From positions 1 through 28,669 of IMG/VR virus record IMGVR_UViG_3300031569_001292: a DNA stretch of 28,669 nucleotides. The stretch is one strand, 5' to 3'. Made by a program: the position numbers and the translations under genes. The DNA is from a virus. The notes beneath the pieces were generated by a model. It had not been told where the DNA came from and did no database searches. It was given only the letters and a program-made list of their open reading frames with translations. This document shows, one piece after another, positions 693-27,241 of the stretch. Position 1 is the stretch's first letter, and each line of letters opens with the position of its first letter.

Positions 693-1673
693 ATGAATGA
701 TTTTACTTTAATACCGTTTCACAATATTGTTAAGTTTGGGCAAAAGACCATGCTTGACCAGCCATTGTTTAATGTTAGCTGGATATTAGGCCGCTTTTGT
801 AATTACAGTTGTAGCTACTGTTGGCCGTATGCAAACACAAATGTACCGGATCATCAGGAGTTTGAAATATATACTAATGCGCTTGATGAGATAAAACGTC
901 AGGCTAGAGATAATGGCTTTACAGAATTCCACTTTAGCTTTAGTGGTGGTGAGCCTACTGCGTATAAGAAGTTTGGTGATTTAATAGAACACTATGCCAA
1001 CGATGATGATGCTAAGTATCTAAGTTTGCATCTAACAACGAATTTAAGTCCAGGTAGTAAATGGTGGAACAGATTTATTGATGCTACACAGCATTTACAC
1101 CGTCGAAGTATTACTGCAAGTTATCATGCAGAGTTTGCTAATGAACAAGAGTTTGGAGATAAATGTCTTCAGCTTATGAAAGGAGGAGTTTATGTTACGA
1201 TCAATCAAGTTATGGTTCCTGAAATGTTTGAGGAACTTTACGAACGCCTGGAACGATTTGCCACCAGAGGTATCAATGTCACTCTCAAACCCCAATCTGA
1301 CCCCACCGCATCTTTCGTTGTACATGGATACACTGAAGAACAAATCACAAGAATGCAAAGAGGATTCCCACAGCACTGGAAAGAAAAAGAAGTAATGCAA
1401 ATGTACATGGAAGATGCCAAAGGCAACGACTATGGGTTGGACCAAGCTGAACGCATGAACGCTTTTGGATTTAATAAATTTAAAGATTGGACATGTAACG
1501 CAGGATATCAAAGCTGCATTATAAGCGGTGATACTGTCAAGAGAGCATATAGTTGTAGCGATAAACCATTAGGTACGCTACAGGGCGGTTTTACGCTGTT
1601 TAAGACACCAACTAAATGTATTACCGATACATGTGTAAGTAGTGCAGACAGTAAGATACCAAAGGTAAAGTAA
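693..1673 (+). CDS. Radical SAM enzyme with C-terminal Cys-rich (SPASM/twitch-like) region
   Basis: A 326-residue radical SAM protein. The cluster-binding motif is C36-NYS-C40-SY-C43, and the SAM-binding GGEP motif is at 85-88 (FSFSGGEP). The C-terminal third has W-TCNAG, further cysteines (CSDKP, CITDTC) and a final D..IPK, suggesting a second Fe-S cluster. It shares this tail pattern (GW.CNAG, then a C...C pair and a late D..K) with the proteins at 4757-5767 and 5745-6659, so the three look paralogous. Substrate unknown; auxiliary-cluster enzymes of this kind often modify peptides. The start at 693 is preferred over an upstream in-frame ATG at 630 because the TAAATA motif at 679 would initiate at about 690. 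No Shine-Dalgarno is visible. First gene of operon A; its TAATG stop/start overlaps the next gene. Confidence 0.88.
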   Translation: MNDFTLIPFHNIVKFGQKTMLDQPLFNVSWILGRFCNYSCSYCWPYANTNVPDHQEFEIYTNALDEIKRQARDNGFTEFHFSFSGGEPTAYKKFGDLIEHYANDDDAKYLSLHLTTNLSPGSKWWNRFIDATQHLHRRSITASYHAEFANEQEFGDKCLQLMKGGVYVTINQVMVPEMFEELYERLERFATRGINVTLKPQSDPTASFVVHGYTEEQITRMQRGFPQHWKEKEVMQMYMEDAKGNDYGLDQAERMNAFGFNKFKDWTCNAGYQSCIISGDTVKRAYSCSDKPLGTLQGGFTLFKTPTKCITDTCVSSADSKIPKVK

Positions 1674-2275
1674 TGAAGATTGATATTCAAGATATAAAGT
1701 TTTGGATGGACGCTATTCGCAACAGCGAAGATAGAGACCGTACACTTGAAAGTTTTTGGGGAGGCCAGTTAAAATCAAAAACTTGGTTAATTGAAACTTT
1801 AGAAAAGTCTAATCATGTTGCCAATGCTGAAGTAGTTATATTTGGTGGATGGAATGGAGTGTTAGCTAACATGCTGTTTAATAGTAGCATAGGGTTTAAA
1901 CATATTACAAGTGTAGACATTGATCCTGTATGCGAAACCGTTGCATTGACAATTAACAAACGTCAAGAAATGGAAGGACGTTTTATAGCAGTAACATCAG
2001 ATATGTGTGATTACGAATATACAAATAAACCTTATTTTGTTATTAATACAAGTTGCGAACATATTAGTCAACAACAATATAATAAATGGTTAAGTAATGT
2101 TCCAGAAGGCTCGAAGATAATATTACAATCAAATAACTATTTTGACCTTGAAGAACATGTTAACTGTAGTGCATCATTAGAAGAATTTGCAAGAAAGTCT
2201 AAGTTAAAAGTATTACACTCAGCTGAATTAGAATTACCTAAGTACAAAAGATTTATGATTATAGGAAACCTTTAA
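1673..2275 (+). CDS. Class I SAM-dependent methyltransferase-like protein
   Basis: A 200-residue Rossmann-type protein. The glycine-rich motif I is VVIFGGWNGVLA (about residues 54-65), followed by an acidic strand end VDIDPVC (about 81-87) that would bind the SAM ribose, then TSDMCDY and a post-motif strand VINTSCEHIS. These fit a small class I methyltransferase; the acceptor is unknown. It is translationally coupled on both sides (TAATG with 693-1673 and with 2275-3357) and has an AAAGG Shine-Dalgarno inside the previous gene. Being sandwiched between radical SAM genes suggests that it methylates an intermediate or product of those enzymes; that is inference. Confidence 0.75.
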   Translation: MKIDIQDIKFWMDAIRNSEDRDRTLESFWGGQLKSKTWLIETLEKSNHVANAEVVIFGGWNGVLANMLFNSSIGFKHITSVDIDPVCETVALTINKRQEMEGRFIAVTSDMCDYEYTNKPYFVINTSCEHISQQQYNKWLSNVPEGSKIILQSNNYFDLEEHVNCSASLEEFARKSKLKVLHSAELELPKYKRFMIIGNL

Positions 2276-3357
2276 TGTTTGACTTTAATGATCTAAAAAC
2301 TATTCACATTGAGCTAACAACAAACTGTCAAGCAAAATGTCCAATGTGTTCAAGAAACATACACAGCGGAGTAGAAAATCCGCTATTACGAATAGTACAA
2401 TGGACATTGGACGATTTTAAAACTATTATTAACAAAGAAGTACTAGACACAATTAACCGTGCGTACTTCTGTGGTAACTTTGGCGATCCATTACTAAATG
2501 ACAGTCTTATTGATATGTGCAGATATGTAAAGGACACCAGTCCTAAGACAGCAATAGGTATACATACAAACGGTAGTTTAAGGAATGCAAAATGGTGGTC
2601 AGATCTAGCAAAAGCATTACCAGAAGACCATTGCGTTTACTTTGCTCTTGACGGACTAGAAGACACTCATAAATTATATAGAGTTGGCACAGATTGGAAT
2701 CGTATTATTGAAAATGCAAAAACATTTATTGCAGCCGGAGGCCGTGCTAACTGGACATATATCAAATTCAAACACAACGAGCACCAAGTTGATAAATGTA
2801 GACAAATTGCAAAAGATTTAGGCTTCCAAGATTTCACAGTTAAAAACACATCAAGATTTTTAGTTGAGCCTAAGTATGATGTATGGGATAAAAATAAAAT
2901 TCCACTGTATAGTTTAGAAGCACCATCTGATACCGAAACACACTTTTTACCTAAAGAAGTTATTGACAATTATAAATCAGTTTTAGACGAAGCAGAAATA
3001 GATTGTCATGTACAACAAATAAAAGAAATATACATTGATGGTTCTAAAACAGTATTACCATGTTGTTGGTTAGCACAAACTCCAATGACTCATTATGATC
3101 CTGCACATGTTTGCGAAGATGTTATAGATATGTTAAGAGGACAATATAGTAAAATGATAAGTGACTTTGGCGGTATAAGCAATCTTGATGCAACTAAAGG
3201 AATAAAAAATATTATTGACTCTGACGTTTGGCAAAACATATGGAAAAAGAAATGGAATGAAGATAAAATGCTAATGTGTGCAAGAACATGTGGTAAGTTT
3301 AAAACATTTAATATCTCACAACCACAAGATCAATTTATTGAAAGAGAAATGTTATGA
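2275..3357 (+). CDS. Radical SAM/SPASM-type enzyme
   Basis: A 360-residue radical SAM protein. Motif C18-QAK-C22-PM-C25 begins right after ELTTN; the GGEP position reads CGNFGDP (66-72), a variant seen in SPASM-type radical SAM proteins. The C-terminal half has a twitch/SPASM-like signature: YIDGSKTVLPCCW near residues 251-263 and a late C..TCGKF near 340. This layout usually binds one auxiliary Fe-S cluster. The substrate cannot be read from the sequence. Third gene of operon A, with TAATG coupling upstream and ATGA overlap downstream to 3354, implying co-translation with two other radical SAM genes. Confidence 0.85.
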   Translation: MFDFNDLKTIHIELTTNCQAKCPMCSRNIHSGVENPLLRIVQWTLDDFKTIINKEVLDTINRAYFCGNFGDPLLNDSLIDMCRYVKDTSPKTAIGIHTNGSLRNAKWWSDLAKALPEDHCVYFALDGLEDTHKLYRVGTDWNRIIENAKTFIAAGGRANWTYIKFKHNEHQVDKCRQIAKDLGFQDFTVKNTSRFLVEPKYDVWDKNKIPLYSLEAPSDTETHFLPKEVIDNYKSVLDEAEIDCHVQQIKEIYIDGSKTVLPCCWLAQTPMTHYDPAHVCEDVIDMLRGQYSKMISDFGGISNLDATKGIKNIIDSDVWQNIWKKKWNEDKMLMCARTCGKFKTFNISQPQDQFIEREML

Positions 3358-4760
3358 CAGATTGGCACTACGATAAAGAAGATACTAGATTAGGCAAGTT
3401 TCAAAGAGAGCTTGAATCTGTTTCTAGTAGTACGTTTTGTGTACTTCCGTGGATACACATGGCAACTAGGCCTAACGGTGATATGCGCTTATGTTGTACT
3501 GCTAATGCTAGTGGAGCTGGAGACGATCACGAAGTTGGTCTTGTAAAAATGGAAGATGGCAAACCTGCAAACTTTGGCAAACATACTCCAATGGAAGCAT
3601 GGAATAACGATTACATGAAAAGTGTACGTACAACTATGCTTAAAGGAGAGATCCCTGCAAGTTGTAAAGGATGTTTCAAAGAAGAGTCACAAGGCATTGT
3701 TAGCAAACGTATATGGGAAAGTGCAACATGGAAAAATGATGAAGGTATTGATATACCAGAACTTATTGCACAAACACAAGAAGACGGAACCGTGCCTGAA
3801 CAATTAAAATATCTGGATCTAAGATTAGGACATACATGCAATATTAAGTGTGTAATGTGTAGCCCGCATGATTCAAGTAAGTGGGTTGCGGACCATAAAA
3901 AACTTATTCCTGTACTACAAGACCCAGAAGTTAAAAGACAAATGCAATGGGATAAGAAACTTTTTAACAACAAATGGCACGAAAAAGATGCTTTTTGGCA
4001 AGAACTCAATGCGCAAATACCTTACCTTAAACAAGTATATTTTGCTGGAGGAGAGCCGTTAATGATCAAAGAGCATAAACGCTTTCTTAAAGAAATTATT
4101 ACACAGGGCTATGCTGACAAAATTTTAGTAAGGTACAACTCCAATGGTTTGCTAGTTGACAACGAGTTAATTGATATATGGAGTAAGTTTAAGAAAGTTA
4201 AATTTGCAGTAAGTATCGACTCGTATAAAGAGCGTGACGAATACATTAGATTTCCAACTAACTTTAAACAAGTTGAAAGCACATTACATTTACTAGATAA
4301 CACTCCCGACAACATTCATGTTAGCATTGCAACAGCAGTACAAATATTCAATATAAAAACTATACCCGAATTTATTAAATGGAAAGTTAATAGTAATTTT
4401 AAAAAGATGAATGTTGGTTTGATTGATGGACATATTATGGGAGGCGGCCTTTTAAATGCACACTTAGTACACATACCAACATTTTTAAATATTACAATAC
4501 TGCCTGAAAAAGACAAGCAAGAAGTACGTGAAAAGTTCGCTGAACTAAAACAATGGTTATGGAATAACTTTACACAAGACGATGAGTTTTGGAAACACAA
4601 TCCTAAAGGTTGGCGCCAATGGGAAGGGTTACTAAAGCACATGGATAGTTGTGATAACAGTCATATGTTACCTGGCTTTAAAGAGTATGTAAATAAATTA
4701 GATGCAATCCGTGGCTTGAATGCCGCATCAGTATTTCCGGAGTTATCACATTTACTATGA
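3354..4760 (+). CDS. Twitch-domain radical SAM protein with N-terminal Cys-rich domain
   Basis: A 468-residue two-part protein. Residues about 23-115 form an N-terminal cysteine-rich unit (FCVLPWIHMATRPNGD, then LCC, then CKGCFKEE), of the type that precedes the radical SAM core in 'twitch domain-containing' phage and marine bacterial proteins. The core motif is C162-NIK-C166-VM-C169 with FAGGEPL near 229-235. It is closely related in layout to 6652-7980 (minus strand) and, in shortened form, to 23113-24027. Reaction unknown. ATGA overlaps at both ends place it tightly in operon A. Confidence 0.87.
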   Translation: MTDWHYDKEDTRLGKFQRELESVSSSTFCVLPWIHMATRPNGDMRLCCTANASGAGDDHEVGLVKMEDGKPANFGKHTPMEAWNNDYMKSVRTTMLKGEIPASCKGCFKEESQGIVSKRIWESATWKNDEGIDIPELIAQTQEDGTVPEQLKYLDLRLGHTCNIKCVMCSPHDSSKWVADHKKLIPVLQDPEVKRQMQWDKKLFNNKWHEKDAFWQELNAQIPYLKQVYFAGGEPLMIKEHKRFLKEIITQGYADKILVRYNSNGLLVDNELIDIWSKFKKVKFAVSIDSYKERDEYIRFPTNFKQVESTLHLLDNTPDNIHVSIATAVQIFNIKTIPEFIKWKVNSNFKKMNVGLIDGHIMGGGLLNAHLVHIPTFLNITILPEKDKQEVREKFAELKQWLWNNFTQDDEFWKHNPKGWRQWEGLLKHMDSCDNSHMLPGFKEYVNKLDAIRGLNAASVFPELSHLL

Positions 4761-5767
4761 CAGATATTATTAAGATTGTTAATACTAGAGAAGAAGATTA
4801 TATAGCAATTACATACTTCCCTACAGATATTTGTAATTTTGATTGCACGTATTGTTTTCCAGGAAGTCACCCATCTAAATATAGATACAGAAAAGACACA
4901 GACTTTGTCATTGACAACTTTAAAAAATTATTTGCTTTTTATAAATTAAAATTTAATAAATCTAAAATATATTTTGAAATTGCCGGTGGCGGCGAACCAA
5001 CACTATGGCCGGATTTATTAAAATTTTGCAAAGAAATTAAAAAAGTTCCAGACTTATCTATAGCACTAGTATGCAACGGATCAAGAACACTTCGTTGGTG
5101 GGACACTATTATTCCCTATATTGACGAAGTTATGTTAAGTTACCATAACGAATTTACAAAAACAGATCATTACATCAATGTAGCAGATTTGATTTGGGAG
5201 AATGGTAAGAAAGTAAATGCTATGGTATTAATGGATTATCCTAATTGGGATAAGTGTATCGATGCAATTGAACAAATGAAACAAAGTAAATACAACTGGT
5301 TTATAAATGCAAAAGAAGTAGTAACTGCTCCAGGGCACGATGTAGAATCATATACTTTAGAACAAAAAGAATATTTAAAACAACCTATTAAGCGGTTGCC
5401 TGATTCAAGTTATATACTAAACAATCTACAAGATTATAGAATGGTCGAAAGTGTTGCAATACTTAATAACGACAAAGTAGTTACAGCAGGTCCTAATTAT
5501 TACTTAATAAACTCTATTAATAATTTTAAAGGATGGGCATGTAACGTAATATCTGAAAAAATAACTATTTTTCCTTCTGGCAAAATAACAGGATCGTGTA
5601 ATATAGACTTTGATTATGATTTAAATTTATACTCGACCACGTTAGAAAAAGACTTAAAACAAGTTACATTACCTTATGTAACATGTACTATGAATTGTTG
5701 TGCTTGTCTAAGTGATAATCACATTACAAAATCAAAGCCAGCTATTATTCCTGCAGTACCTTTGTAA
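4757..5767 (+). CDS. Radical SAM enzyme with C-terminal Cys-rich region
   Basis: A 336-residue radical SAM protein. Motif C26-NFD-C30-TY-C33 lies near the N-terminus; the SAM motif reads AGGGEPT at about 77-83. The C-terminal part has GWACN, GSCNIDFD and the cluster CTMNCCAC with a final D..ITKSKP, matching the tails of 693-1673 and 5745-6659. These three probably share an auxiliary cluster and perhaps related substrates. The start ATG overlaps the previous stop (ATGA). Last gene of operon A; its final 23 bp overlap the 3' end of the opposite-strand radical SAM gene, so no terminator fits between them. Confidence 0.87.
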   Translation: MTDIIKIVNTREEDYIAITYFPTDICNFDCTYCFPGSHPSKYRYRKDTDFVIDNFKKLFAFYKLKFNKSKIYFEIAGGGEPTLWPDLLKFCKEIKKVPDLSIALVCNGSRTLRWWDTIIPYIDEVMLSYHNEFTKTDHYINVADLIWENGKKVNAMVLMDYPNWDKCIDAIEQMKQSKYNWFINAKEVVTAPGHDVESYTLEQKEYLKQPIKRLPDSSYILNNLQDYRMVESVAILNNDKVVTAGPNYYLINSINNFKGWACNVISEKITIFPSGKITGSCNIDFDYDLNLYSTTLEKDLKQVTLPYVTCTMNCCACLSDNHITKSKPAIIPAVPL

Positions 5768-6659
5768 GAGGTATATCAGCAGCACACGTACACCATTTAC
5801 GAGTACAAGTTATCCATTCTTCAGGCTGCTCAAAACTGCCATCATAGATGTTACCTATACTTCCACCTACTCTACAAGTAGCACGATGTACATCGCCATC
5901 CCAATTAATCATTAGGCTTTCAATTCCTGCACTGCATTTCCAACCTTTAAATTGATTTAGGTGTTGTTTAATAACATCGTTGGCATGCATCTTAGTTGTG
6001 TCGTCAATAATTACATTAGGATTTACGGTAGACGTTCTGTCTAATATCCATTCTAAATCTTTACCTTCATATTTCAAATCATCAAACACATCATGGTCAC
6101 CTTCTGTCCATCGTATTCGTCTTACAACATAAGGAATACAGTGTCCATCAAACATTGTAGCACACTCTTTTACTCTATCCATAAATTGATGATGTGCCAT
6201 TAAGTTAACTTGAAATGGCTTTTGTGTATACGCACCTTCATTTAATTGAGAAAACAATAATACTGTTTCTGCGCATCGTCTCCAATTTTCAGTATCTTCT
6301 ACGTGCAAACTAAACACAATGTGACTTACATTAAGATCGTTGTAGTACTCGGCTGTGCGGGTTCCGTTGGTAGTTACGTTAACCCACTCAAGCTGTTGAC
6401 CTTGCATTGCATGATCAACTAGTTCTACAAACTGTGGATGAACACACGGCTCACCGCCTGTGAAACTTACACGTATTGGCTTGCCAATTTCCCCTAGTGC
6501 ATCAACTGCATCTAACAATACTTTAATATTTGTGTGTGGGCTAGTGTTGTCATGAATTGCTGCTGGGCAATAACTACAATCTAAGTTACAGCGTTTACCT
6601 AAATTCCATTCAACATGAACGCTATCTTGTCGATCATAACTAGAAGCTATTTTAAACAT
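5745..6659 (-). CDS. Radical SAM enzyme with C-terminal Cys-rich region
   Basis: A 304-residue radical SAM protein of operon B. Motif C24-NLD-C28-SY-C31 and FTGGEP near residue 70 are intact. The C-terminal region has GWKCSAG, ATC, and CTRKWCTCAADIPLTK, the same tail layout as 693-1673 and 4757-5767. The ATG at 6659 is preferred over an in-frame TTG at 6668; either start overlaps the upstream gene's stop. A general likeness to GGEP-type radical SAM enzymes that activate small molecules or peptides is clear, but it is not a recognisable QueE despite the QueC-like protein in the same operon. It is convergent with, and overlaps by 23 bp, the end of operon A. Confidence 0.87.
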   Translation of the reverse strand: MFKIASSYDRQDSVHVEWNLGKRCNLDCSYCPAAIHDNTSPHTNIKVLLDAVDALGEIGKPIRVSFTGGEPCVHPQFVELVDHAMQGQQLEWVNVTTNGTRTAEYYNDLNVSHIVFSLHVEDTENWRRCAETVLLFSQLNEGAYTQKPFQVNLMAHHQFMDRVKECATMFDGHCIPYVVRRIRWTEGDHDVFDDLKYEGKDLEWILDRTSTVNPNVIIDDTTKMHANDVIKQHLNQFKGWKCSAGIESLMINWDGDVHRATCRVGGSIGNIYDGSFEQPEEWITCTRKWCTCAADIPLTKVLQE

Positions 6660-7980
6660 ACGGCGCAAACTCTGGATTTATAACTTCAAACGGTCCTTGC
6701 TTACGACTTTTGTCTAAGTTACGATTAAAGTTAATACAGTCTTGCCATAACTCGTCGTGTAAATCGTCTGCTTGTAAGAAGTTAATATTATCCTGAATCT
6801 GCGTTAATGTAAAATCTTTAATTCTGCTATCACTTTTTACAAGTTTGTAATCTAAAACTTTTTCTTTCATTGCTTCTAGTTTATCAATTACTTGTAGTTT
6901 TAGTTCATTAGGAATAACCTGTGCTGATAACGCCTTAGGATATTGTACTCTATGACTGTAGAATATAATTTCCATGTTCTCCATAAAGTACTCAATTACT
7001 TTATCAATTTGCATTATATTGTTTGACTGTACAGTAAATGCTCCAACAATTCTACTAACTGTAGGAATTGTTTTCATAATTTTAATATTTTCTTCAATCT
7101 CAATAAACTTGCCATTGCCTCTAATGTATTCATAGATATCGTGTATACCGTCTATGCTTACATTAACAGCAACACTTTTAAACTTAGGCCAATATTCGTG
7201 TACAGTTCGACCGCCCTTAATACCAAGTGTAGTTCCGTTAGTAGCATACTTTAATTCAATGTTCTCTCCATACGGTGCTAACATATCTAAAATTTTATAA
7301 TGTTGAGGATCCATTAATGGTTCGCCGCCTGCAAACTCTACTCGTCTAAAGTAGGGCAATAGTTTCTTAAAACTACTCCACCAATTATCTGTATCTTCAA
7401 ATGCATCAATATATTGACCTGGCTTTTTAACCAGTGCATTAACTGTTGGAATGAGAAAGTTATTTTCTTTTTTGTAAAATTCTGTAACTTGATCCCAGTC
7501 TTTCCATTGTGTGCTATCTAACGGGTTACACATACGACATTTAAGATTACATAAGTTGTTTAACTTTACTTCCATTGTAGGTATTTCAAATGGCATTGAA
7601 TAATCATCTTCTAAGGCGTCTAATGCATTGGGATATAAATTAATCCTAGCTTCTGGTATGACACCTTCTATATGTCGCTGACGTAAACTTTGAACTCCTT
7701 GGTCTTCTAACCTAAAACAAGGTGCGCATACTTCAGGTCGTTCGTCATTCATTACCTGCCGGCGTACCTCTTTAATCTTGTCTCCGTTCCAAATTTCTTC
7801 TAGTGTGTTATCTTTGATATCGCCAATAGGAGCACTGCGGCAACAAATCTTAATTGCGCCATCTTCTCTAGTTGCTAATCCTGTAAAAGGATGCATACAA
7901 AAAGTTTTACTGTTGCATGGCATTGGTAACTCCCCATTGTCTTTCTTGGCACCAAAAACATTTTTTACATGTTGGAACAT
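6652..7980 (-). CDS. Twitch-domain radical SAM protein with N-terminal Cys-rich domain
   Basis: A 442-residue protein built like 3354-4760: an N-terminal cysteine-rich unit (FCMHPFTGLATREDG, then ICC, then CAPCFRLED, about residues 27-95), then the radical SAM motif C144-NLK-C148-RM-C151 and FAGGEPL near residue 219. The start at 7980 has an AGGA Shine-Dalgarno five bases upstream. The gene begins inside the last 74 bases of the PP-loop gene, a long overlap for a phage operon; a later in-frame ATG at 7923 would shorten this. Function unknown. The PP-loop protein and two radical SAM enzymes of operon B are expected to act together. Confidence 0.87.
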   Translation of the reverse strand: MFQHVKNVFGAKKDNGELPMPCNSKTFCMHPFTGLATREDGAIKICCRSAPIGDIKDNTLEEIWNGDKIKEVRRQVMNDERPEVCAPCFRLEDQGVQSLRQRHIEGVIPEARINLYPNALDALEDDYSMPFEIPTMEVKLNNLCNLKCRMCNPLDSTQWKDWDQVTEFYKKENNFLIPTVNALVKKPGQYIDAFEDTDNWWSSFKKLLPYFRRVEFAGGEPLMDPQHYKILDMLAPYGENIELKYATNGTTLGIKGGRTVHEYWPKFKSVAVNVSIDGIHDIYEYIRGNGKFIEIEENIKIMKTIPTVSRIVGAFTVQSNNIMQIDKVIEYFMENMEIIFYSHRVQYPKALSAQVIPNELKLQVIDKLEAMKEKVLDYKLVKSDSRIKDFTLTQIQDNINFLQADDLHDELWQDCINFNRNLDKSRKQGPFEVINPEFAPYV

Positions 7981-20206: not shown

Positions 20207-20368
20207 GTGGCACGTAGCTCACTCATGTAATCTTACATGTGTAGGGTGTGGGCATTTTAGTAATCATAGACATACAGGTATAGTAAAATATGACGAATTA
20301 GAATCTTGGTACAAGAGTTGGGCTCATAGACTTGATCCGAAAACAATTGACATACTAGGAGGAGAGCC
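19430..20368 (+). repeat. Direct 23-nt repeat over the GGEP motif of two tandem radical SAM genes
   Basis: An identical 23-base stretch occurs at 19430-19452 and 20346-20368, encoding the shared (I)DILGGEP segment in the same frame. A second identical 15-mer (TGTAATCTTACATGT) covers the CNLTC codons of both genes. Identity at synonymous positions points to a recent duplication or gene conversion. The entry spans both copies. Confidence 0.85.
20165..20171 (+). promoter_or_regulatory. Strong ribosome binding site deciding a TTG start
   Basis: AAAGGAG ends six bases before the TTG at 20178 and lies inside the upstream radical SAM gene. It fixes the non-ATG start of the second tandem radical SAM gene; no ATG is available before the cysteine motif. 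Confidence 0.75.
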
Positions 20369-21014
20369 TCTACTAAACAAAGACATTTATAACATTCTTT
20401 TCTTAACAAGAAAGTATTGGCCAGACTGTGAAAATTTAAATTTACAAACTAATGGCTTTTTGCTTTACAAGTATCCTGACTTACCTAAAGTGCTAGAAGA
20501 AACTAATATATCTATTAGCCTTAGTAAGCACAGTACTAAAGAAGCATATATGAAAAAGTTTACGCCTGCAGAAGAATTACTATTACAATGGAAAAAAGAT
20601 TATAATATTAAAGCAGAAGTTTCCCCATGCCATACATATTGGTTTGAAATATATAAAGGGTATGGAAACAACATGATGCCCTATGAAGATAATGATGCAC
20701 AGAAAAGTTGGGATAATTGTATTACCGGACAAGATTGTTTCCAACTACTAGATAACGAAATATACAAATGTTCGCCACTAGCATATCTTCCGTTTCAAAA
20801 GAAATTATACAACTTATCTCCTAAGTGGGATCCCTATTTAAAGTATAAGCCAATAACAGCAGATTGCACAGATCAAGATCTAGCAGAGTTTTTTGCTAGA
20901 GGATGTGAAAGTTTTTGCTCAATGTGTCCTACTAATCCAAAGCGTATGGATCAACAAGGTGATCCAACAACACCAAGATCACACTACGAAAACATAAAAA
21001 TTCAACAGGTATAA
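20178..21014 (+). CDS. Radical SAM enzyme with C-terminal Cys-rich region (tandem copy 2)
   Basis: A 278-residue radical SAM protein. Motif C17-NLT-C21-VG-C24 and ILGGEP near 58-63 are intact; the C-terminal part has CITGQDCFQLLDNEIYKCSP and CESFCSMCP, so it probably binds an auxiliary cluster. It is about 45 residues shorter than its tandem neighbour, mostly before the C-terminal cysteines. Initiation is at TTG 20178, supported by AAAGGAG six bases upstream. The 29-bp overlap with the previous gene implies coupled translation, and the pair may form a complex or act in sequence. Next comes the PLP aminotransferase gene after one base. Confidence 0.87.
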   Translation: MSKLKISHLEWHVAHSCNLTCVGCGHFSNHRHTGIVKYDELESWYKSWAHRLDPKTIDILGGEPLLNKDIYNILFLTRKYWPDCENLNLQTNGFLLYKYPDLPKVLEETNISISLSKHSTKEAYMKKFTPAEELLLQWKKDYNIKAEVSPCHTYWFEIYKGYGNNMMPYEDNDAQKSWDNCITGQDCFQLLDNEIYKCSPLAYLPFQKKLYNLSPKWDPYLKYKPITADCTDQDLAEFFARGCESFCSMCPTNPKRMDQQGDPTTPRSHYENIKIQQV

Positions 21015-21015: not shown

Positions 21016-21951
21016 ATGCAAAAGTTTCCATACGATAAAAAACATTTACCATTTGGACATTCAGGAGCAGTCCTCGATCAAGAAGTAATGAACTTTTTGA
21101 ACATGATACCTCTTAGATTCACAGAACACATGTATGATGTAAATGTAACTGAAGAATATTTAGAAAGATATCATGCTTGGATTAGAATGTCAGCTCTAAA
21201 TTTAATAGCAGGGCTAGATGATTTTCCTTACAAATGTTACTCTCATGGTACTACTGAATCATTTGATAAGTTTTACATGAAGCACAAAGATAGAAGATTT
21301 AGATGCTTTAGAGGTGAATATCTATATCATCAGTTAGCATGGCGTGATAAATTTAATTGGTTGTATGCCGATGATGATTGCTTAGATGCTAATGACGCAC
21401 TAGTTATTAGTTTACCTTTTAGTAATACAGGAAACAAACACAAGTTACACGAAGCAGCATTAAATGAATGCGATAGACTAGGTATACCTGTTTTACTTGA
21501 CTGTTGTTACTTTGGTATATCGTCTGCTATAGAATTTAATTTTAAGCATGAATGTATAACTGATATTGTTTTTAGTTTATCAAAAACATTTCCAGTAGCA
21601 CATGCAAGGATAGGTATGCGTTTAAGCAAATACGATGACGATGATACTTTATTTGTTTATAACAAAAATAGTTACGTGAATAGACTAGGTGCTTATATAG
21701 GTTTACAATTAATGGAAAACTATAGTCCTGATTTTATCTATAAAAAGTATAAATCACAACAATTAGAATTTTGTAAACATTTAGGTGTCGAGCCTAGCAG
21801 CACGGTATTATTTGGTATTGCACCTCAAGACAAGTATGTAGAATACGATAGAGGTGGCGGCAGTCCTGATGCTGAACTGAATAGGCTCAGTTTTCATAAA
21901 TTTCTGCCTATGTCAATTGAGGAGTTCGTACAATGCATAAAGCAAGAGTAG
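21016..21951 (+). CDS. PLP-dependent aminotransferase-like protein (fold type I)
   Basis: A 311-residue protein. The Schiff-base lysine is in FSLSKTFPVAHARIG (about residues 192-206), with an Arg-Ile-Gly shortly after as in class I/II aminotransferases; LLDCCYFG near 160-167 supplies the PLP-pyridine Asp and a nearby Tyr, and SLPFSNTGN resembles the NPNNPTG strand end. It is shorter than the usual 370-400 residues, with a reduced small domain. The likely reaction is amino transfer from Glu to a keto group, perhaps a keto-sugar or keto-acid made by the SDRs or epimerase (inference). It follows two radical SAM genes and overlaps the glycosyltransferase-like gene by 19 bp. Confidence 0.75.
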   Translation: MQKFPYDKKHLPFGHSGAVLDQEVMNFLNMIPLRFTEHMYDVNVTEEYLERYHAWIRMSALNLIAGLDDFPYKCYSHGTTESFDKFYMKHKDRRFRCFRGEYLYHQLAWRDKFNWLYADDDCLDANDALVISLPFSNTGNKHKLHEAALNECDRLGIPVLLDCCYFGISSAIEFNFKHECITDIVFSLSKTFPVAHARIGMRLSKYDDDDTLFVYNKNSYVNRLGAYIGLQLMENYSPDFIYKKYKSQQLEFCKHLGVEPSSTVLFGIAPQDKYVEYDRGGGSPDAELNRLSFHKFLPMSIEEFVQCIKQE

Positions 21952-23120
21952 TTAATATTGAATGGACGCCTGATAATAACAGATGGAATCTTGATAAAAC
22001 GGTATTCAGCGAATTAAAACTAAAGTGGATATTCAAAGAATTTAAACAAGCAGCCAAAGACGGATGTAATACTGTTATTGCAGTAATGATGATCGATGGT
22101 GTTCTAAACCCAGAGCCAGATATTTGGCCAGGTGAAGTTGCTAGAATGAAAGAACGTTGTACAAAACTAGGAATAGAAAAACTAGTGTTTGTTTCGGGTC
22201 ATGGCGGTTACGAATATATAGTACCTTTAGCATTTGATAAAATATATGCTATTGATTACACACTCCAATTTACTTATAAGTCTTACGAAGATAGAATTAC
22301 CAAAAACAAACTAACTGAATATAATCCACATGCAGATAAATTTCTATTTCTTGGCGGCGTGCCATCGAGGATGAATCGTATAGGATTGCTTTACAAGTAT
22401 TATAAACTTGGAATGTTAGACTACAATGCTATTTGGACATTCTTTGTTCCATGGACAGAAAGTGAACGCAAAGTGTGCAAGGATTTAATGCACATGTTAA
22501 CAGACGAAGATCTAACCAAGTTTTACAATTTTGCCAAAAGAAGAATAGGCGATGAGTACGAACATGCTAAACAGTTTTTTGCAGATAACACAAGTGACTG
22601 GCATGATGTTGGAGAAACTGATTGGGCTAGAGCACCTGCACTGATTAACAGTAGTATATTTCCAGAAACGTGTTTAAGCATTATTAGTGAAGGTCCTAAC
22701 TATTGGGATCACAATGCAAACAATTCTTTTGTAACAGAAAAGTTTTGGAGAGCAGCATTTCACAAACATCCGTTCTTGTTTGCGGGCGACTTAGATCAAT
22801 TTAAATATATGGAAACTCTTGGGTTCCGAACCTTTGCAGAATATATGACTATACCAGAGTATGCATACCTTGAAACAGAGGAGCAACGTCTTGATGCAAT
22901 TGTAACCAATACAGCAGACTTTTTAAAACTTCAGAAGCCACAAAAATTAATTGATGATATAGAACACAACTATCAATTAGCAAAGCGTTATGTTGATAAG
23001 CAACATTTACTTCTTGATCATCTAGTTGATCATTATGGGGCACCAAGAAATGAAGTAAATTATTATCTTAATCAAACAGGATATACTAATCTAGTACAGA
23101 GGCCGCCATCGTATGAGTAA
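21933..23120 (+). CDS. Glycosyltransferase-like protein (GT10-like C-terminal motif)
   Basis: A 395-residue protein. The C-terminal part has FVTEKFWRAAFHKHPFLFAG followed by KYMETLGFRTF, resembling the donor-site region of alpha-1,3-fucosyltransferase-like (GT10) and related phage/viral GT-B proteins. Preceding it is CLSIISEGPNYW, usual for that family. The N-terminal half (VFVSGHGGYEY, FLFLGGVPSRMNR) looks like the first Rossmann domain. It would transfer a sugar from an NDP-sugar to an acceptor; neither is known. GAGGAG eight bases ahead of ATG 21933 fixes the start inside the aminotransferase gene. The most direct evidence that the island's product includes a glycosidic bond. Confidence 0.65.
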   Translation: MHKARVVNIEWTPDNNRWNLDKTVFSELKLKWIFKEFKQAAKDGCNTVIAVMMIDGVLNPEPDIWPGEVARMKERCTKLGIEKLVFVSGHGGYEYIVPLAFDKIYAIDYTLQFTYKSYEDRITKNKLTEYNPHADKFLFLGGVPSRMNRIGLLYKYYKLGMLDYNAIWTFFVPWTESERKVCKDLMHMLTDEDLTKFYNFAKRRIGDEYEHAKQFFADNTSDWHDVGETDWARAPALINSSIFPETCLSIISEGPNYWDHNANNSFVTEKFWRAAFHKHPFLFAGDLDQFKYMETLGFRTFAEYMTIPEYAYLETEEQRLDAIVTNTADFLKLQKPQKLIDDIEHNYQLAKRYVDKQHLLLDHLVDHYGAPRNEVNYYLNQTGYTNLVQRPPSYE

Positions 23121-24027
23121 ATGTGCAGCATTTTATAAGCATACTAATGTGCGTAGCGGAAATAGAATATTTCCTTGTTGTCGCTATAAAGAACCTATAG
23201 CTGTGTTCGACGGTAATTTAAACAGGGTACTTGACTTACCAGAGATGCAAAAGTTAAGAGAAACACCTGTTGAAGATAACCCTAATTGTGCAAAATGTGT
23301 ACACGAAGAGTCGTTAGGAAAAAACAGTTTGCGTGAACGCTTTAATGCTGAGTATAACACACAAGAAGTAAAATTAGAATATTTAGAAATAGGGTTTGAT
23401 AATATTTGTAATGCAGCCTGTGATGGGTGTTATCCAGAGTTTAGCAGCGAGTGGGGTAAGATACTAGACCCAAACAAAAAGAATCATATTGTAAGCAGTG
23501 ACGAAATAACTTCTATTCCAGATACTGTAACAAAGATATTATTCTTAGGAGGCGAACCATTAATGACTAACAGACACAGACGCCTATTAGAAATGGTAAC
23601 CGACCTAAGTAACATGACAGTAATATACAACACCAATGGTACATTTATGTTAGACAAAGAAACTATAATACAACTTGAAAAATGTAAAAGTGTTGAATTT
23701 ATTCTAAGTCTTGATGGCTATGGTGAGCTAAATGAGCGTGTAAGAAAAAACTGTAAATGGAGTAAGATAGAACGCTTTATTGATCAAGTAAAGATATGTG
23801 GTTATAAATTAAGTGTAAACACTGTACTCCACAAAAATAACTATCACGGACTTGTTGATTTAGAAAACTATATTAACAGTTTAAAAGATGTTGAATGGTC
23901 AGTAAACATACTTACATTCCCTCAAACATTAGATGTTAATACGGTTGAAAATAAACAAGCAGTAATAGATAGTATAGTGAAAACAAATATAGCAAACAAG
24001 GAAGCACTTATTAAACATGTTACATGA
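23113..24027 (+). CDS. Radical SAM enzyme with N-terminal Cys-rich domain, shortened C-terminus
   Basis: A 304-residue relative of the twitch-type proteins at 3354-4760 and 6652-7980. An N-terminal cysteine-rich unit (FPCCRYK, then CAKCVHEE, residues about 20-65) comes before the radical SAM motif C99-NAA-C103-DG-C106 and FLGGEPL near residue 140. It ends about 140-160 residues earlier than its relatives, after IANKEALIKH, so a C-terminal region that the other two have is absent. No frameshift is visible; the next gene starts immediately, overlapping by 11 bp, and may supply the missing function. Start ATG overlaps the glycosyltransferase-like stop by 8 bp. Confidence 0.86.
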   Translation: MSKCAAFYKHTNVRSGNRIFPCCRYKEPIAVFDGNLNRVLDLPEMQKLRETPVEDNPNCAKCVHEESLGKNSLRERFNAEYNTQEVKLEYLEIGFDNICNAACDGCYPEFSSEWGKILDPNKKNHIVSSDEITSIPDTVTKILFLGGEPLMTNRHRRLLEMVTDLSNMTVIYNTNGTFMLDKETIIQLEKCKSVEFILSLDGYGELNERVRKNCKWSKIERFIDQVKICGYKLSVNTVLHKNNYHGLVDLENYINSLKDVEWSVNILTFPQTLDVNTVENKQAVIDSIVKTNIANKEALIKHVT

Positions 24028-24568
24028 TATTAGATTATACGCTGACTATGACAAGTTTTTACAAGTAGTAGAAGCAGCAAAGACTGCTATACCAAATAAG
24101 TTTTGTATTGTAGAACATCTAGTTAATGTAACAGAATATGATGACAGCCCTGACTTGACAGATATACACCCAAAAGATAGAAATAACGTAGACTTCCGTG
24201 TCTGTATATTTTATCCAGACAAAGATAATACAATACCAAGACTAAAACCTGTGTGCGATATACTTGAAAATATGCAAGGAGTTGAACGTGCTGCAATTAT
24301 CAACATAGGTCCTAAGTCTATTATGCCAAAGCACATTGATGATATGGAAAGACCTTTATACGAAGAAACTCCATTCTATAATGTGTTTACAGGTTTTCAA
24401 ATTCCACAAGGAGATTTAGGTGTTAAAGTTGGAGAAGATTTAGCAGACGTTAGCAACCCGATAGTTTTTAATGCACAAATACCACACGAAGCATGGAATC
24501 AAACTTCGCAAGACTGGTTATCTTTACTGATATATATTAATAACGATACATTTAAAAAGGAACAATAA
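24017..24568 (+). CDS. Cupin-fold Fe(II)/2OG oxygenase-like protein
   Basis: A 183-residue protein. H106-I-D108 (KHIDDME) and H157 (IPHEAWN) are the candidate Fe(II) ligands; no clear 2-oxoglutarate Arg follows (the strand reads DWLSLLIYIN), so activity is uncertain. Overall size and strand order match the other small cupin-type proteins of the island. The gene overlaps the end of the shortened radical SAM gene by 11 bp and is TAATG-coupled to the amidinotransferase gene, implying stoichiometric expression of the three. Confidence 0.58.
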   Translation: MLHDIRLYADYDKFLQVVEAAKTAIPNKFCIVEHLVNVTEYDDSPDLTDIHPKDRNNVDFRVCIFYPDKDNTIPRLKPVCDILENMQGVERAAIINIGPKSIMPKHIDDMERPLYEETPFYNVFTGFQIPQGDLGVKVGEDLADVSNPIVFNAQIPHEAWNQTSQDWLSLLIYINNDTFKKEQ

Positions 24569-25620
24569 TGAAAGTATCTACTCACAACCATTGGGATCCC
24601 TTAGAAGAGATAGTAGTTGGAATAGCTGACCATGCTAGAGTACCAACTGTAGATCGTAGCACTATGAGCATGAGCTACACTAATCATCCTATGGATTTGA
24701 TTAAACCTTTAGAGGGTGAATATCCTAAATGGCTTATTGATGAAGCAAATGAAGATCTACAAGGGTTAAGTGATGTACTATCTAAAGCAGGTATAAAAGT
24801 ACACAGACCTATTCCAATTGATCACAGCAAAGAATTTAGTACTCCTGAATGGAAAACTACAGGATGGTATACATGGTGTCCTAGAGATTTACTATTGCCT
24901 ATGGATAACTTAGTTATTGAAACTCCTAGTGCTTGTCGTGCAAGACAGTACGAAACTAGAGCATACAGAGATATTATGTTAGAAGCAATTGCCGACGGTG
25001 TTGAATGGATTGCTGCGCCTAAACCAACCCTACCGGATGAAGGCTATCAGTTTGATGACATTGAGGGTAAACCCAGTTTGTTAAATCTAGAGCCTATCTT
25101 TGATGCACCTAACTGTGTACGTCTGGGCAAAGACATATTGTTTCAAATTAGCAACACAGGAAACCATTGGGGATTAAAATGGTTGCAAAATGTACTAGAG
25201 CACAGAGGGTATCGTATACACCCTGCAGAACACATTTATAGTTACGGACACTTTGACAGCACAATAGTACCTCTACGTCCTGGATTAGTATTATTAAACA
25301 GTTCAAGAGTAACCGCAGAAAACTGTCCTAAAGTATTTGAGAAATGGGATAAAATTTGGTTTGATGATTGTGTTGCCCAAGGCAGCAAAATTCCAGGAGG
25401 AGTTGCACCATGCAGTCCTTACATTGGTATGAACATTTTAAGTATTGATCATAATACAGTTGTTGTAGACGATACGCAAGAACCTCTAATGCGTGAGTTA
25501 GACAAGCACGGTATTACTAGTGTACCTGTACGCTTTAGACATGCTATGACTTTAAGTGGTGGGTTGCATTGTGCAACACTTGATTTAAAACGTAAAGGCG
25601 TATTGGAGGATTATACATAA
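24568..25620 (+). CDS. Amidinotransferase (glycine / inosamine-phosphate amidinotransferase family)
   Basis: A 350-residue pentein-fold enzyme. The catalytic Asp-His-Cys set is visible: D179 (FDAPNC), H228-x-D230 (GHFDS) and C335 (GGLHCATLDLKRKG). The N-terminus STHNHWDPLEEIVVG is typical of glycine amidinotransferase and the StrB1-type inosamine-phosphate amidinotransferase. It moves the amidino group of arginine to an amine acceptor, giving ornithine and a guanidino compound. Length matches the family (about 350-390). The acceptor is not readable; an amino sugar or aminocyclitol made by the adjacent aminotransferase is attractive but inferred. AAGGA six bases ahead of the ATG is one of the best ribosome sites in the island. 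Confidence 0.9.
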   Translation: MKVSTHNHWDPLEEIVVGIADHARVPTVDRSTMSMSYTNHPMDLIKPLEGEYPKWLIDEANEDLQGLSDVLSKAGIKVHRPIPIDHSKEFSTPEWKTTGWYTWCPRDLLLPMDNLVIETPSACRARQYETRAYRDIMLEAIADGVEWIAAPKPTLPDEGYQFDDIEGKPSLLNLEPIFDAPNCVRLGKDILFQISNTGNHWGLKWLQNVLEHRGYRIHPAEHIYSYGHFDSTIVPLRPGLVLLNSSRVTAENCPKVFEKWDKIWFDDCVAQGSKIPGGVAPCSPYIGMNILSIDHNTVVVDDTQEPLMRELDKHGITSVPVRFRHAMTLSGGLHCATLDLKRKGVLEDYT

Positions 25621-26114
25621 TGTTAAAGTATTGGGGCAATGTAACTGACTTCTGGAAAGAAGATTTACAGAATTACACATGGCCTGAGTCTGTAAGTACA
25701 GGACAGAACGAAAATTTTCATGATGCTTACTTTGATGAATCTAATAATTTAATGCAAGGGTTTGATGGGCAATTGCCAACCTGCTGTGATAGATTCTTTA
25801 AAGAACTATACATTGAAAAAAAAGAAATTAGCAGCATAAGTTGGACACAAATTAAACCGTCAGGGACTATTCCTGTACATGCAGATAAATTTTTTAAACT
25901 TAGAACAAAACATAATTTAGATATTGATGATTGTGTAAGATATCTTATATTTTTAGAAGATTGGACGTTAGGTCATATGGTTGAGTTTGAGCAACAACCA
26001 GTTACTAAATGGAAAAAAGGTGATGTATGGACATTTACACACGACGATTTACACTGTGCTGGAAATGCCAGTAACCATAACTTTAACACATGCCAAGTAA
26101 ACACGAGGAAATAA
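25620..26114 (+). CDS. Cupin-fold Fe(II)/2OG oxygenase-like protein
   Basis: A 164-residue protein. H87-A-D89 (PVHADKF) and H145 (DLHCAGN) are candidate Fe(II) ligands. Its second half (GHMVEFEQ, WKKGDVWTFTHD) is the closest match in the window to 16764-17264. No obvious 2-oxoglutarate-binding Arg lies after the distal His until the very last residues (NTRK). The start is TAATG-coupled to the amidinotransferase stop with GGAGG about 10 nt upstream; the end is TAATG-coupled to the fusion gene, so these three form a co-translated unit. Confidence 0.65.
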   Translation: MLKYWGNVTDFWKEDLQNYTWPESVSTGQNENFHDAYFDESNNLMQGFDGQLPTCCDRFFKELYIEKKEISSISWTQIKPSGTIPVHADKFFKLRTKHNLDIDDCVRYLIFLEDWTLGHMVEFEQQPVTKWKKGDVWTFTHDDLHCAGNASNHNFNTCQVNTRK

Positions 26115-27241
26115 TGGAACTAACTTCTCTACAAAAAGAATGGAATAACTGTACACTTGAGTACGATCTAGAAAGATTTAATTGGCCTGCATGGGCTTTA
26201 AGTGTTGTACAAGAAGTAGCGCCAACTGTTACTAAATTAGAAACACTACACGAAGTGCTATCTCCTAAAGAGATTGTAACAGTTAGTAAGCATGTACAGA
26301 ATGCGTGTAGCCGTAAAGACTTTATGGAACGCTTTGATGCGTTTGTTGCTGAATACATTCCGCAGCGTATTGACGGTAAACGATTTATGATACAGCGCCA
26401 AGGAACATTGCGTGTTGTTATTCCAAATCAAGCAAAAGTAGGCAGACGTTTGCAGTTTCATCAGGGCATTTTTGTAGGCAACGGTAGAGGTTGTAGAACT
26501 ATATGGACACCGTTCACTGAAGCTCGTGGCACTAATACAATGTGGATGGTTGACCTAGAAAACAGCCGCCGTATTACTAAAGACTTTGTTACAGAAAAAT
26601 GGAGTCTCGAACGTATGGAAGATGAATGTTTAAAGGTTGCGTTTCCTGTTACTCTTAAACCAGGACAAAGTCATTTATTTTTCCAAGAAATGTTACACGG
26701 CAATGTCAACAACGAAGAAGGATATACTCGTGTTAGCATGGATATGCGTATCTTAATTGAAGGTGAAGAATACGGACGCAGACATCCAGGAGGCTTTATG
26801 CGATTGCCTGGCGATCATGAAGTAGCAGAACTAGGAGACTATTCCGGCAAGAGTGCAATTACATATGCAGGATGGGCTAGTGATTTTTCTAGGAATGTTA
26901 CACTACCTATGCAAAGAGCAATTATTGATCAGTACTGCGAAAGAACAAATATACAATACACTAGTTATGAATTTGAGAATGATCATTGTGATTGGCAGCC
27001 AAGTTTAGAATATTTTATTAAACAACAACCTGATGTGATTGTTCTTAACAGTATGTACAGCCTTACTGATGATGCAGAGCGCAGAACAGAATTATTAAAT
27101 TTAGCATTAAGATTAGGTGTAGAGTTGCATTTTGCAAACGAATTGACAGTTCTTAAAACACAAGATGATTTAGATAAAATTGAAACCTATCTCAATTTTG
27201 CAGTAGAAAAATTAGAACCTTATGTTTGGGAATTAGTGTAA
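26114..27241 (+). CDS. Fusion: 2OG-Fe(II) oxygenase-like domain plus LIC12192-like 'sporadic carbohydrate cluster' domain
   Basis: A 375-residue two-domain protein. Residues about 60-225 resemble phytanoyl-CoA-hydroxylase-type 2OG-Fe(II) oxygenases of 'sporadic carbohydrate clusters': LQFHQGIFVGNGRG, then WTPFTEARGTNTMWM, then QEMLHGNVNNEEGYTRVSMD. The proximal site is H116-Q-G118, lacking the carboxylate of the usual HxD, while H195 and R206 are in place. Residues about 245-375 resemble the LIC12192 family: YAGWASDFSRNVTLPMQR, YCERTNIQY, then IVLNSMYSLTDDAERR and VELHFANE. Those two families are usually separate genes in surface-carbohydrate loci. The ATG at 26114 has AGGA five bases upstream and is TAATG-coupled; an in-frame ATG at 26090 is less likely. 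Its last 9 bp overlap the structural gene. Confidence 0.7.
   Translation: MELTSLQKEWNNCTLEYDLERFNWPAWALSVVQEVAPTVTKLETLHEVLSPKEIVTVSKHVQNACSRKDFMERFDAFVAEYIPQRIDGKRFMIQRQGTLRVVIPNQAKVGRRLQFHQGIFVGNGRGCRTIWTPFTEARGTNTMWMVDLENSRRITKDFVTEKWSLERMEDECLKVAFPVTLKPGQSHLFFQEMLHGNVNNEEGYTRVSMDMRILIEGEEYGRRHPGGFMRLPGDHEVAELGDYSGKSAITYAGWASDFSRNVTLPMQRAIIDQYCERTNIQYTSYEFENDHCDWQPSLEYFIKQQPDVIVLNSMYSLTDDAERRTELLNLALRLGVELHFANELTVLKTQDDLDKIETYLNFAVEKLEPYVWELV

Follow-up and report, generated by a model that had tools for sequence, protein, structure and literature searches.

The window, by which we mean the whole stretch of DNA analyzed (28,669 nt, positions 1-28,669 of IMG/VR record IMGVR_UViG_3300031569_001292), holds an enzyme island at 693-27241. 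This island was found to be 99.6% coding, with a longest gap of 39 bp, and 26 of the 34 junctions among its 35 listed genes overlap or share one base. Phage-like genes are few in the window: a thyX (Thy1) gene cut by the contig end (2..334, minus strand; PF02511, E 1.1e-21) and a gene for a histone H1-like protein Hc1 (397..669, minus strand; PF07432, E 2.7e-18) on the left flank, and a gene for a fibre-like protein on the right flank (27233..28669, minus strand), read as such partly by eye since its Mtd_N match (E 0.0012) is below the cut-off. The DNA is assigned to a phage because its source is a virus record and because its relatives carry gp23. Indeed, we observed the gp23 major capsid protein, which is absent from the window itself, in 9 of 10 related records of at least 145 kb; the large relatives of the island-bearing virus are T4-like phages.

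An earlier note on this DNA had counted ten radical SAM genes. This count was confirmed, since all ten proteins (R1 to R10) exceeded the PF04055 cut-off in single-protein scans (nine of them were listed by a six-frame scan of the record) and all ten contain CxxxCxxC. PF04055 scores were 47.1 bits for R1 (693..1673, plus strand), 34.4 for R2 (2275..3357, plus), 48.3 for R4 (4757..5767, plus), 49.6 for R5 (5745..6668, minus), 43.7 for R7 (14224..15234, minus), 33.8 for R8 (19238..20206, plus) and 38.4 for R10 (23113..24027, plus); R9 (20178..21014, plus) was recognized in the Pfam scan. R3 (3354..4760, plus) and R6 (6652..7980, minus) are of the twitch/SPASM type, with NF033640 scores of 397.8 and 319.7 bits against a cut-off of 170, which R10 just missed (164.8 bits). 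A relative of R5 at 57-70% identity was present in 10 of 10 large related records. Most of the radical SAM proteins matched general models alone, peptide-modifying models among these. Viperin-type defence was considered and rejected: viperin_w_prok scores did not exceed 45.9 bits against a cut-off of 180 (values listed for nine of the ten proteins), and PADLOC pVip gave at most 54.1 bits in the seven proteins scanned (all but R7, R8 and R9).

The ten oxygenase-like genes of the earlier note were likewise recovered, with two metal-binding His in 10/10, HxD in nine and HQG in the protein encoded at 26114-27241 (O10). Alignments with relatives revealed HxD and a distal His in O1 to O9. The Pfam cut-off was passed by O4 (12052..12651, plus; PF13640, 2OG-FeII_Oxy_3, E 3e-11) and by the Asp/Asn beta-hydroxylase-like O7 (18467..19198, minus; PF05118, Asp_Arg_Hydrox, E 1.5e-6) only. 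The Asp/Asn hydroxylase-like O8 (24017..24568, plus; HID..H) fell just below it (PF05118, 21.2 bits, cut-off 22.6), and its metal-site Asp is kept in 11 of 15 aligned sequences. The other 2OG oxygenase-like proteins, all encoded on the plus strand, are O1 (8702..9364; HAD..H..R in 8/8 sequences, window included), O2 (10950..11528; HWD..H in 11/11), O3 (11525..12052; HWD..H in 7/7), O5 (15946..16761; HRD..H..R in 18/18), O6 (16764..17264; HTD..H..R in 22/22) and O9 (25620..26114; HAD..H in 22/22).

Several further enzymes lie among these genes. We found an NDP-sugar epimerase/dehydratase (9361..10275, plus; PF01370, E 1.2e-37; the nearest NCBIfam is LegB, under its cut-off), two short-chain dehydrogenase-like proteins (SDR1, 12648..13106, plus, profile match to SDR2 with probability 100; SDR2, 13107..13709, plus, FabG-like PHROG, E 1.5e-4), two kinase-fold-like proteins (K1, 10244..10957, plus, profile match to K2 with probability 98; K2, 15224..15919, minus, profile match to protein kinase TTK, E 5e-5) and a PP-loop/QueC-like protein (7907..8662, minus; phrog_1550, E 4e-6; no Pfam or NCBIfam match). 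A PLP aminotransferase-like protein (21016..21951, plus; weak PDB matches, E 0.02-0.03) has an invariant SLSK (187-190) and D162, presumably PLP-type motifs. That no unrelated gene intervenes, as had been claimed, holds insofar as none inside the island is clearly unrelated; three genes, however, lack a family assignment. These encode a protein that is methyltransferase-like by eye (1673..2275, plus; no Pfam, PHROG or NCBIfam match; relatives at 48-58%), one that is GNAT-like by eye (13683..14240, minus; no family match; relatives at 58-67%) and the conserved protein U (17242..18480, minus), which has many invariant residues and no family or fold match.

The one fair glycosyltransferase candidate in the island is the GT-B-like protein GT (21933..23120, plus), and no sugar nucleotidyltransferase or transporter was recognized within the island. 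The best VIA alignments of its AF2 model (pLDDT 87.8) were GT-B glycosyltransferases, led by that of phage HY126 (Z 11.0); Foldseek gave no match below 1e-3 for this model, and the profiles of U and GT matched nothing useful among PDB sequences. The HY126 enzyme presumably acts on DNA, and this match, together with thyX at the island border, would suit hypermodification of phage DNA bases. We regard this as very improbable: PF00303 was found in only 3 of 14 records, in a search that cannot separate thymidylate synthase from hydroxymethylase, and the nearest cellular relatives of the island amidinotransferase lie in polysaccharide loci, as described below.

The earlier note had viewed the genes as a dedicated biosynthetic system and had proposed searching viral metagenomes for conserved neighbourhoods. 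In viral contigs, O5 matched 405 stretches. Among the O5-anchored loci, 55 span 18 kb or more, and the median number of window gene families in these is 18 out of 35; clustering was weaker in the O10-anchored survey (median 11 families, minimum 1). R6 adjoins the PP-loop gene in 64/64 loci holding both, and O2 adjoins O3 in 37/37. The shared content and recurring adjacent pairs bear out the proposal of a dedicated system, and homologues are not scattered without a shared neighbourhood. Moreover, in a 364-kb related record, nine listed of the ten radical SAM places all fall within 240.8-263.9 kb. Survey counts are non-independent, as the same contigs turn up in more than one survey and certain records (G007, G011) are close kin, and the alignments leave out near-identical or cut sequences (L027, L045, L032, L065). 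Relatives differ in the order of these genes and in which of them are present, which would be expected of a chance accumulation of unrelated cargo in a variable region. This explanation is scarcely credible, being contradicted by the surveys and by eight off-island stretches of related records, of which five had no window-protein match at 1e-4 (L054, L058, L063, L067, L073) and three had one each (L062, L071, L072). Large aquatic phages have in common a set of some thirty enzyme genes whose order varies. Among named phages, no match was obtained by megablast with window positions 1-25000 or by protein searches with O5 and O10.

The amidinotransferase (24568..25620, plus) is StrB1-like and matches PDB 1bwd over its full length (E 1.4e-95). 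Among proteins of solved structure it scores highest against inosamine-phosphate amidinotransferase (323.6 bits, the runner-up reaching 212), and its nearest kin is StrB1, an enzyme of streptomycin biosynthesis. Both have the GG-x-HCATLD and H-x-DSTIVPLRPGLVL segments, which we take to have active-site roles. Judging from this kinship, the substrate is most likely the amine of a sugar or aminocyclitol, with arginine as the donor. Aminocyclitol biosynthesis uses amidinotransferase, PLP-type and kinase-type enzymes, and the StrB1-like, PLP-type and kinase-fold proteins of the island recall it; the island might therefore make a diffusing small molecule, for example an aminoglycoside-like inhibitor of competitors, or a ribosomal peptide. 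We consider this improbable, since no exporter or self-resistance gene was recognized and the gaps between genes, at most 39 bp long, are too short for a precursor gene. A RiPP cluster was set aside on the latter ground, in a check that covered the gaps and not overlapping or distant precursors.

Three SAR11 genomes (AG-359-D09, AG-919-I10 and G513) were found to carry an island-type amidinotransferase (39-46%) inside surface-polysaccharide loci that also hold radical SAM genes within ~15 kb, NeuB-like genes and further sugar genes, the sugar functions being assigned by eye. Of 297 SAR11-order genomes sampled, two had an amidinotransferase match of at least 40% among the matches listed, and in both the contig also bears a SpoChoClust_2 scoring over its cut-off, at distances of ~11 and 26 kb; such a SpoChoClust_2 occurred in 22 of the 297 overall. 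Some amidinotransferase was detected at 1e-20 in 225 of the 297 genomes (those listed mostly 33-36% identical), so that the class does not belong to surface loci alone. Like the island, the SAR11 loci combine an amidinotransferase, radical SAM and SpoChoClust_2, the last being only a weak relative in AG-919-I10. They differ in having SpoChoClust_1 as a separate gene, one or two radical SAM genes and, by eye, nonulosonate-type genes. No paper joining guanidino sugar or amidinotransferase, surface polysaccharide and radical SAM was found in the open-access literature searched.

That a phage has one or a few enzymes of this kind, as the earlier note put it, fails for radical SAM: 11 such genes are found in Campylobacter phage CP220 and 12 in CPt10, with an amidinotransferase in one cluster (PMC2853527). 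These phages are likewise distantly T4-like, and five radical SAM genes and the amidinotransferase form an exchangeable cluster; in CP220, nucleotide-diphospho-sugar transferase domain genes lie beside the amidinotransferase. However, the module is smaller, with 10-12 genes; what it shares with the island is limited to the amidinotransferase (23-30%) and a general radical SAM likeness (23-28%), and no 2OG gene is annotated in the CP220 stretch examined around the amidinotransferase. Synechococcus phage S-SCSM2R (PQ898602) has an amidinotransferase (35.5%), an R9-like protein (42%, ~2 kb from the amidinotransferase) and an O9-like 2OG protein (26%) within ~3 kb, beside annotated glycosyltransferases and a gene of aminotransferase type whose annotation reads AHBA synthase. 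In contrast to the island, the 29.6-kb stretch examined contains one radical SAM gene and several glycosyltransferases, and no further window family matched there at 1e-4. The host recognition cluster of pelagimyophages (PMC7029224) resembles the island in being large and variable and in combining tail fibre and sugar genes with radical SAM cassettes. It lies between vrlC and gp14; a gp14 model, applied to place the island, matched nowhere. Islands of this kind are partly known already from the Campylobacter phage modules (PMC2853527); new here are the size of the system, its ten oxygenases, the modules that recur, and an HxG site like that of halogenases, present in the window and 15/15 aligned relatives. 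Radical SAM modules of phages have been reported since 2010, no function having been assigned to them, and literature searches on phages and radical SAM in an open-access library found no paper.

O10 (26114..27241, plus) is a single protein in which a SpoChoClust_2-like (2OG) domain is joined to a SpoChoClust_1-like one, as judged by NCBIfam profiles. Its match to TIGR04324 (E 1.5e-21) scored 77.1 bits against a curated cut-off of 150, which makes it a relative of SpoChoClust_2 and not a member, and its match to TIGR04323 (E 1.8e-10) was also below the curated cut-off. In cells, SpoChoClust_1 and SpoChoClust_2 are separate adjacent genes, as in a SAR11 polysaccharide locus; in six further cellular loci, a frame beside the SpoChoClust_2-type gene matches the C-terminal part of O10. 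Neither "SpoChoClust" nor "sporadic carbohydrate cluster" was found mentioned in the open-access literature searched.

We propose, with a probability of roughly 55%, that the island is a modular sugar-tailoring pathway of large T4-like aquatic phages, because its amidinotransferase is StrB1-like, O10 is carbohydrate-cluster-like, GT is GT-B-like, the epimerase/dehydratase is of an NDP-sugar family, the SAR11 relatives lie in polysaccharide loci and sugar-transferase genes adjoin the amidinotransferase in S-SCSM2R and CP220. Against this reading stand the single glycosyltransferase candidate with its lack of a Foldseek match below 1e-3, the failure to recognize a sugar nucleotidyltransferase or transporter, the mostly general radical SAM matches, the wide spread of amidinotransferases in SAR11, the O10 scores under the NCBIfam cut-offs and the weaker clustering of the O10 survey. 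The order of steps that we infer would start from a host sugar nucleotide or cyclitol, which would be changed by the dehydrogenases, the epimerase/dehydratase and radical SAM enzymes. The PLP-type protein (21016) would add an amino group, which the StrB1-like enzyme (24568) would convert to a guanidino group with arginine as donor. The 2OG enzymes would oxidize several carbons, O10 possibly halogenating, and GT would transfer the modified sugar. The decorated glycan might be carried by the tail fibre, the baseplate or the host envelope. The benefit could be changed recognition, virion protection or exclusion of other phages. Such islands would render virions or infected hosts chemically distinct, with a bearing on host range and phage competition in water, and the conserved, shuffled set with its StrB1-like and carbohydrate-cluster-like proteins offers concrete, testable chemistry (a guanidino sugar) and candidate enzymes that are short.

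The earlier note had named either a complex sugar or a multi-step protein modification; the sugar part is supported, given the sugar-type closest relatives of several enzymes, and the protein part is less supported. Direct modification of a virion protein, for instance the neighbouring fibre-like one, with cross-links or epimers made by radical SAM enzymes and side chains hydroxylated by 2OG enzymes, would fit the two Asp/Asn-hydroxylase-like proteins (O7, O8), the twitch/SPASM proteins with weak peptide-maturase matches, and the fibre-like gene at the right border, which has a match in 20 of 41 amidinotransferase-anchored loci. We hold it to be rather unlikely, as the amidinotransferase, epimerase, GT-like and SpoChoClust-like proteins indicate sugars, and the fibre-like neighbour varies widely (26-75% identity) and lacks a match in 21 of the 41 loci, many of them short.

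The possible halogenation step concerns the metal site of O10, which consists of HQG at 26459-26467, a distal His at 26696 and an Arg at 26729; neither this site nor the two-domain fusion appeared in the earlier note. HQG was observed in 16/16 aligned sequences (the window and 15 relatives, partly non-independent: L044 and L055 are one record, and L038, L039 and L042 are nearly alike). Across 201 loci, HQG was read in 95, with 5 unread at first pass; on re-reading, L191 has HQG, L040 begins past the motif, and L188, L190 and L192 stayed unread. The 80 O10-anchored loci were seeded with two patterns, one of which includes FHQGIF, so that only the 16-sequence alignment, reached through the amidinotransferase, is free of this bias. 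Cellular relatives have HxD/E in 20/20 rows readable at the motif (9 from a first set of 20 rows; 11 added, L299-L308 and L311, some repeats; L082-L086 nearly alike), and the SpoChoClust_2 proteins of AG-359-D09 and G513 have HxD.

In Fe/2OG halogenases, Gly or Ala replaces the iron-binding acid (PMC8407142), and O10 resembles CurA Hal and SyrB2 in this respect. Foldseek with the O10 model ranked CurA Hal first and SyrB2 tenth. The 50 VIA rows listed were hydroxylases and other oxygenases (FtmOx1, PtlH) and no halogenase, which counts against a halogenase short of excluding it. Some Asp/Asn hydroxylases also lack the acid, and HxG alone is thus no proof of halogenation. From its motif, O10 is possibly a halogenating enzyme. 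A bolder proposal, which we hold only tentatively and think doubtful, is that aquatic T4-like phages make a guanidino-bearing, multiply oxidized, halogenated sugar, O10 being a phage Fe/2OG halogenase derived from a carbohydrate-cluster hydroxylase by an Asp-to-Gly change at the iron site and fusion to its partner protein. We know of no earlier viral halogenase of the non-heme iron type, none was reported among the papers listed by an open-access literature search, and the known viral halogenase VirX1 is flavin-dependent, in contrast to the Fe/2OG site of O10. If it halogenates, O10 would represent a new viral enzyme class and, so far as we know, the first viral non-heme iron halogenase, possibly a sugar halogenase. 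In places, gene starts differ slightly from those in the earlier note (12037/12052, 10944/10950 and 26090/26114).

The window, 28,669 bases long, comprises an entire virus record. Among the 35 window genes scanned, Pfam identified ten radical SAM proteins, all over the curated cut-off, and every one of them contains one or two CxxxCxxC motifs, which bears out the count of ten in the earlier note. Radical SAM pairs matching over long stretches shared about 20 to 30% identity, indicating that they are not recent copies. Two of them, R3 (3354) and R6 (6652, minus strand), scored 397.8 and 319.7 bits against NF033640 (twitch-domain radical SAM; cut-off, 170) over nearly the full model length. From the oxygenase-like set, Pfam placed two proteins over cut-off and one just under. 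When each was aligned with its own relatives, nine showed HxD and a distal His, and the tenth, O10 (26114), showed HQG with a His and an Arg (sequence counts in these alignments include the window protein). The oxygenase-like set is real, though mostly invisible to Pfam, and the observation in the earlier note is confirmed. Profile comparison grouped O2 (10950), O3 (11525), O6 (16764) and O9 (25620) in one remote family; the kinase-fold-like K1 (10244) and K2 (15224, minus strand) paired up, as did the short-chain dehydrogenase-like SDR1 and SDR2.

The earlier note had proposed a search for conserved neighbourhoods, and the window families were indeed found to share loci. With the amidinotransferase AMD (24568) as query, we obtained 41 loci in viral contigs, on which the window proteins mapped as the same families in shuffled modules (median of 14 families per locus, minimum of 3, in the 22 loci of at least 18 kb). 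This result was tested with an independent anchor, the oxygenase-like O5 (15946; 80 loci out of 405 matching stretches), which gave a median of 18 window families out of 35, counting the anchor itself, with no locus below 6 (55 of the 80 loci, those of at least 18 kb). Anchoring on O10 (80 loci out of 182 matching stretches) yielded a median of 11 families and a minimum of 1 (21 loci of at least 18 kb), and this lower median indicates that O10 is less tied to the other island genes. Four short contigs of 4.7 to 12.9 kb (L035, L038, L039 and L042) carried AMD at 62% and O10 at 45 to 47% identity, the latter with HQG, and no further window family; they possibly represent a minimal version.

Several gene pairs stayed together across the 201 loci of the three surveys, whose records overlap, such that the counts are not independent: R6 adjoined the PP-loop gene in 64/64 loci with both, O2 adjoined O3 in 37/37, R5 (5745, minus strand) R6 in 51/53, K2 O5 in 85/96, AT (the aminotransferase-like gene, 21016) GT (the glycosyltransferase-like gene, 21933) in 54/68, and AMD O9 in 45/61. 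The GT-like gene was present as two tandem or near-tandem copies in L013, L014, L026 and L070. Sixteen records of our choosing had 9 to 16 radical SAM matches each, and a relative of R5 (57 to 70% identity) was found in 10/10 large records.

The T4 capsid protein gp23 was found in 4 of 20 records, mostly short ones, in 9 of 14 records of a second set, and in 9 of 10 among the records of at least 145 kb, with sizes up to 357 to 364 kb. This places the large island-bearing relatives among the T4-like phages. In the window, the island is flanked by the gene of a fibre-like protein, which had a match in 20 of the 41 AMD loci. At the left border lies an Hc1 histone-like gene (397-669), also seen near the island in G006, G012 and G013 (L055, L059 and L064). 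The window border carries thyX (2-334), whereas a thyA-family gene lies close to the island in G006 (143296-144132), so that the thymidylate synthases are swapped.

Streptidine biosynthesis comprises oxidation, transamination, phosphorylation and amidino transfer. AMD aligned over its full length with the inosamine-phosphate amidinotransferase StrB1 (323.6 bits), followed by HsvA (212 bits) and SxtG (206 bits). The K2 profile matched a protein kinase at 5e-5, and AT showed invariant PLP-enzyme-like motifs, with weak PDB matches. The predicted model of 21933 (pLDDT 87.8) had no Foldseek match below 1e-3, and in VIA-align 2 its top matches were GT-B glycosyltransferases (Z 11.0, 259 residues, rmsd 4.3). 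The N-terminal part of 26114 matched TIGR04324 and its C-terminal part TIGR04323, both 'sporadic carbohydrate cluster' families and both below curated cut-offs. We infer that all four streptidine steps have a candidate enzyme in the island. Since such a candidate is present for every step, the favoured product would be an amino- or guanidino-sugar or cyclitol. The interpretation in the earlier note is partly supported: the results favour its dedicated biosynthetic system and its complex sugar, and multi-step modification of a protein less so.

HQG occupied the position of the iron-binding acid in 26114 and in all 15 aligned relatives. Cellular relatives readable at this site had HxD or HxE in 20/20 cases (nine and eleven from two readings), 18 of them over the family cut-off. 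According to a review (PMC8407142), non-heme iron halogenases usually have an alanine or a glycine in place of the carboxylate. Foldseek on the 26114 model (pLDDT 82.2, weaker around the motif, with residues 120-122 below 50) gave the CurA halogenase as its top match, with SyrB2 in tenth place. However, the 50 VIA-align matches listed for this model were hydroxylases and other oxygenases (Z 12-13.5), with no named halogenase, and halogenation by 26114 is accordingly rated only as possible. Separately, Synechococcus phage S-SCSM2R has a gene (L052:27686-29095) annotated PrnA, a flavin halogenase name, about 7 kb from its amidinotransferase.

A scan of bacterial genomes with AMD, which detects close relatives only, returned two loci, both in SAR11 (41% and 39%). 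By eye, both are surface-polysaccharide loci with NeuB-like, CMP-sugar-synthetase-like, sugar-epimerase and deacetylase-like genes. One has an over-cut-off SpoChoClust_2 (TIGR04324) gene about 11 kb from the AMD relative; a SpoChoClust_1-like (TIGR04323) gene adjoins it, and upstream lies the terminal portion of a radical SAM protein. An amidinotransferase was found at 1e-20 in 225 of 297 SAR11-order genomes sampled; among the matches listed, identity to the phage protein was mostly 33 to 36% and reached at least 40% in G021 and G513 alone. Both of these carry an over-cut-off SpoChoClust_2 on the contig of the AMD relative, and any such gene occurred in 22/297 genomes. A radical SAM gene lay within about 15 kb of the amidinotransferase in G513, G021 and G022 (3/3). 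Together, the AMD relative, SpoChoClust_2 and the nearby radical SAM gene indicate that cells have this same enzyme kit in their loci for surface sugars.

Our searches of a library of open-access papers found no description of this set of families. The Campylobacter phages CP220 and CPt10 were described with 11 and 12 radical SAM proteins, and an exchangeable cluster there comprises five radical SAM genes and a putative glycine amidinotransferase, to which the authors, where they describe it, assign no function (Timms et al. 2010, PMC2853527). Pelagimyophages were reported to have a variable host recognition cluster with fibres, glycosyltransferases and, for one pair of genomes, radical SAM cassettes, and a change of the host surface was proposed (Zaragoza-Solas et al. 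2020, PMC7029224). From these descriptions, the kind of island is already known in outline. Small radical SAM clusters were also seen in Vibrio phages of about 253 to 255 kb (L009 and L010), and the cluster of Vibrio phage D484 lies with QueC-like and nicotinamide phosphoribosyltransferase genes.
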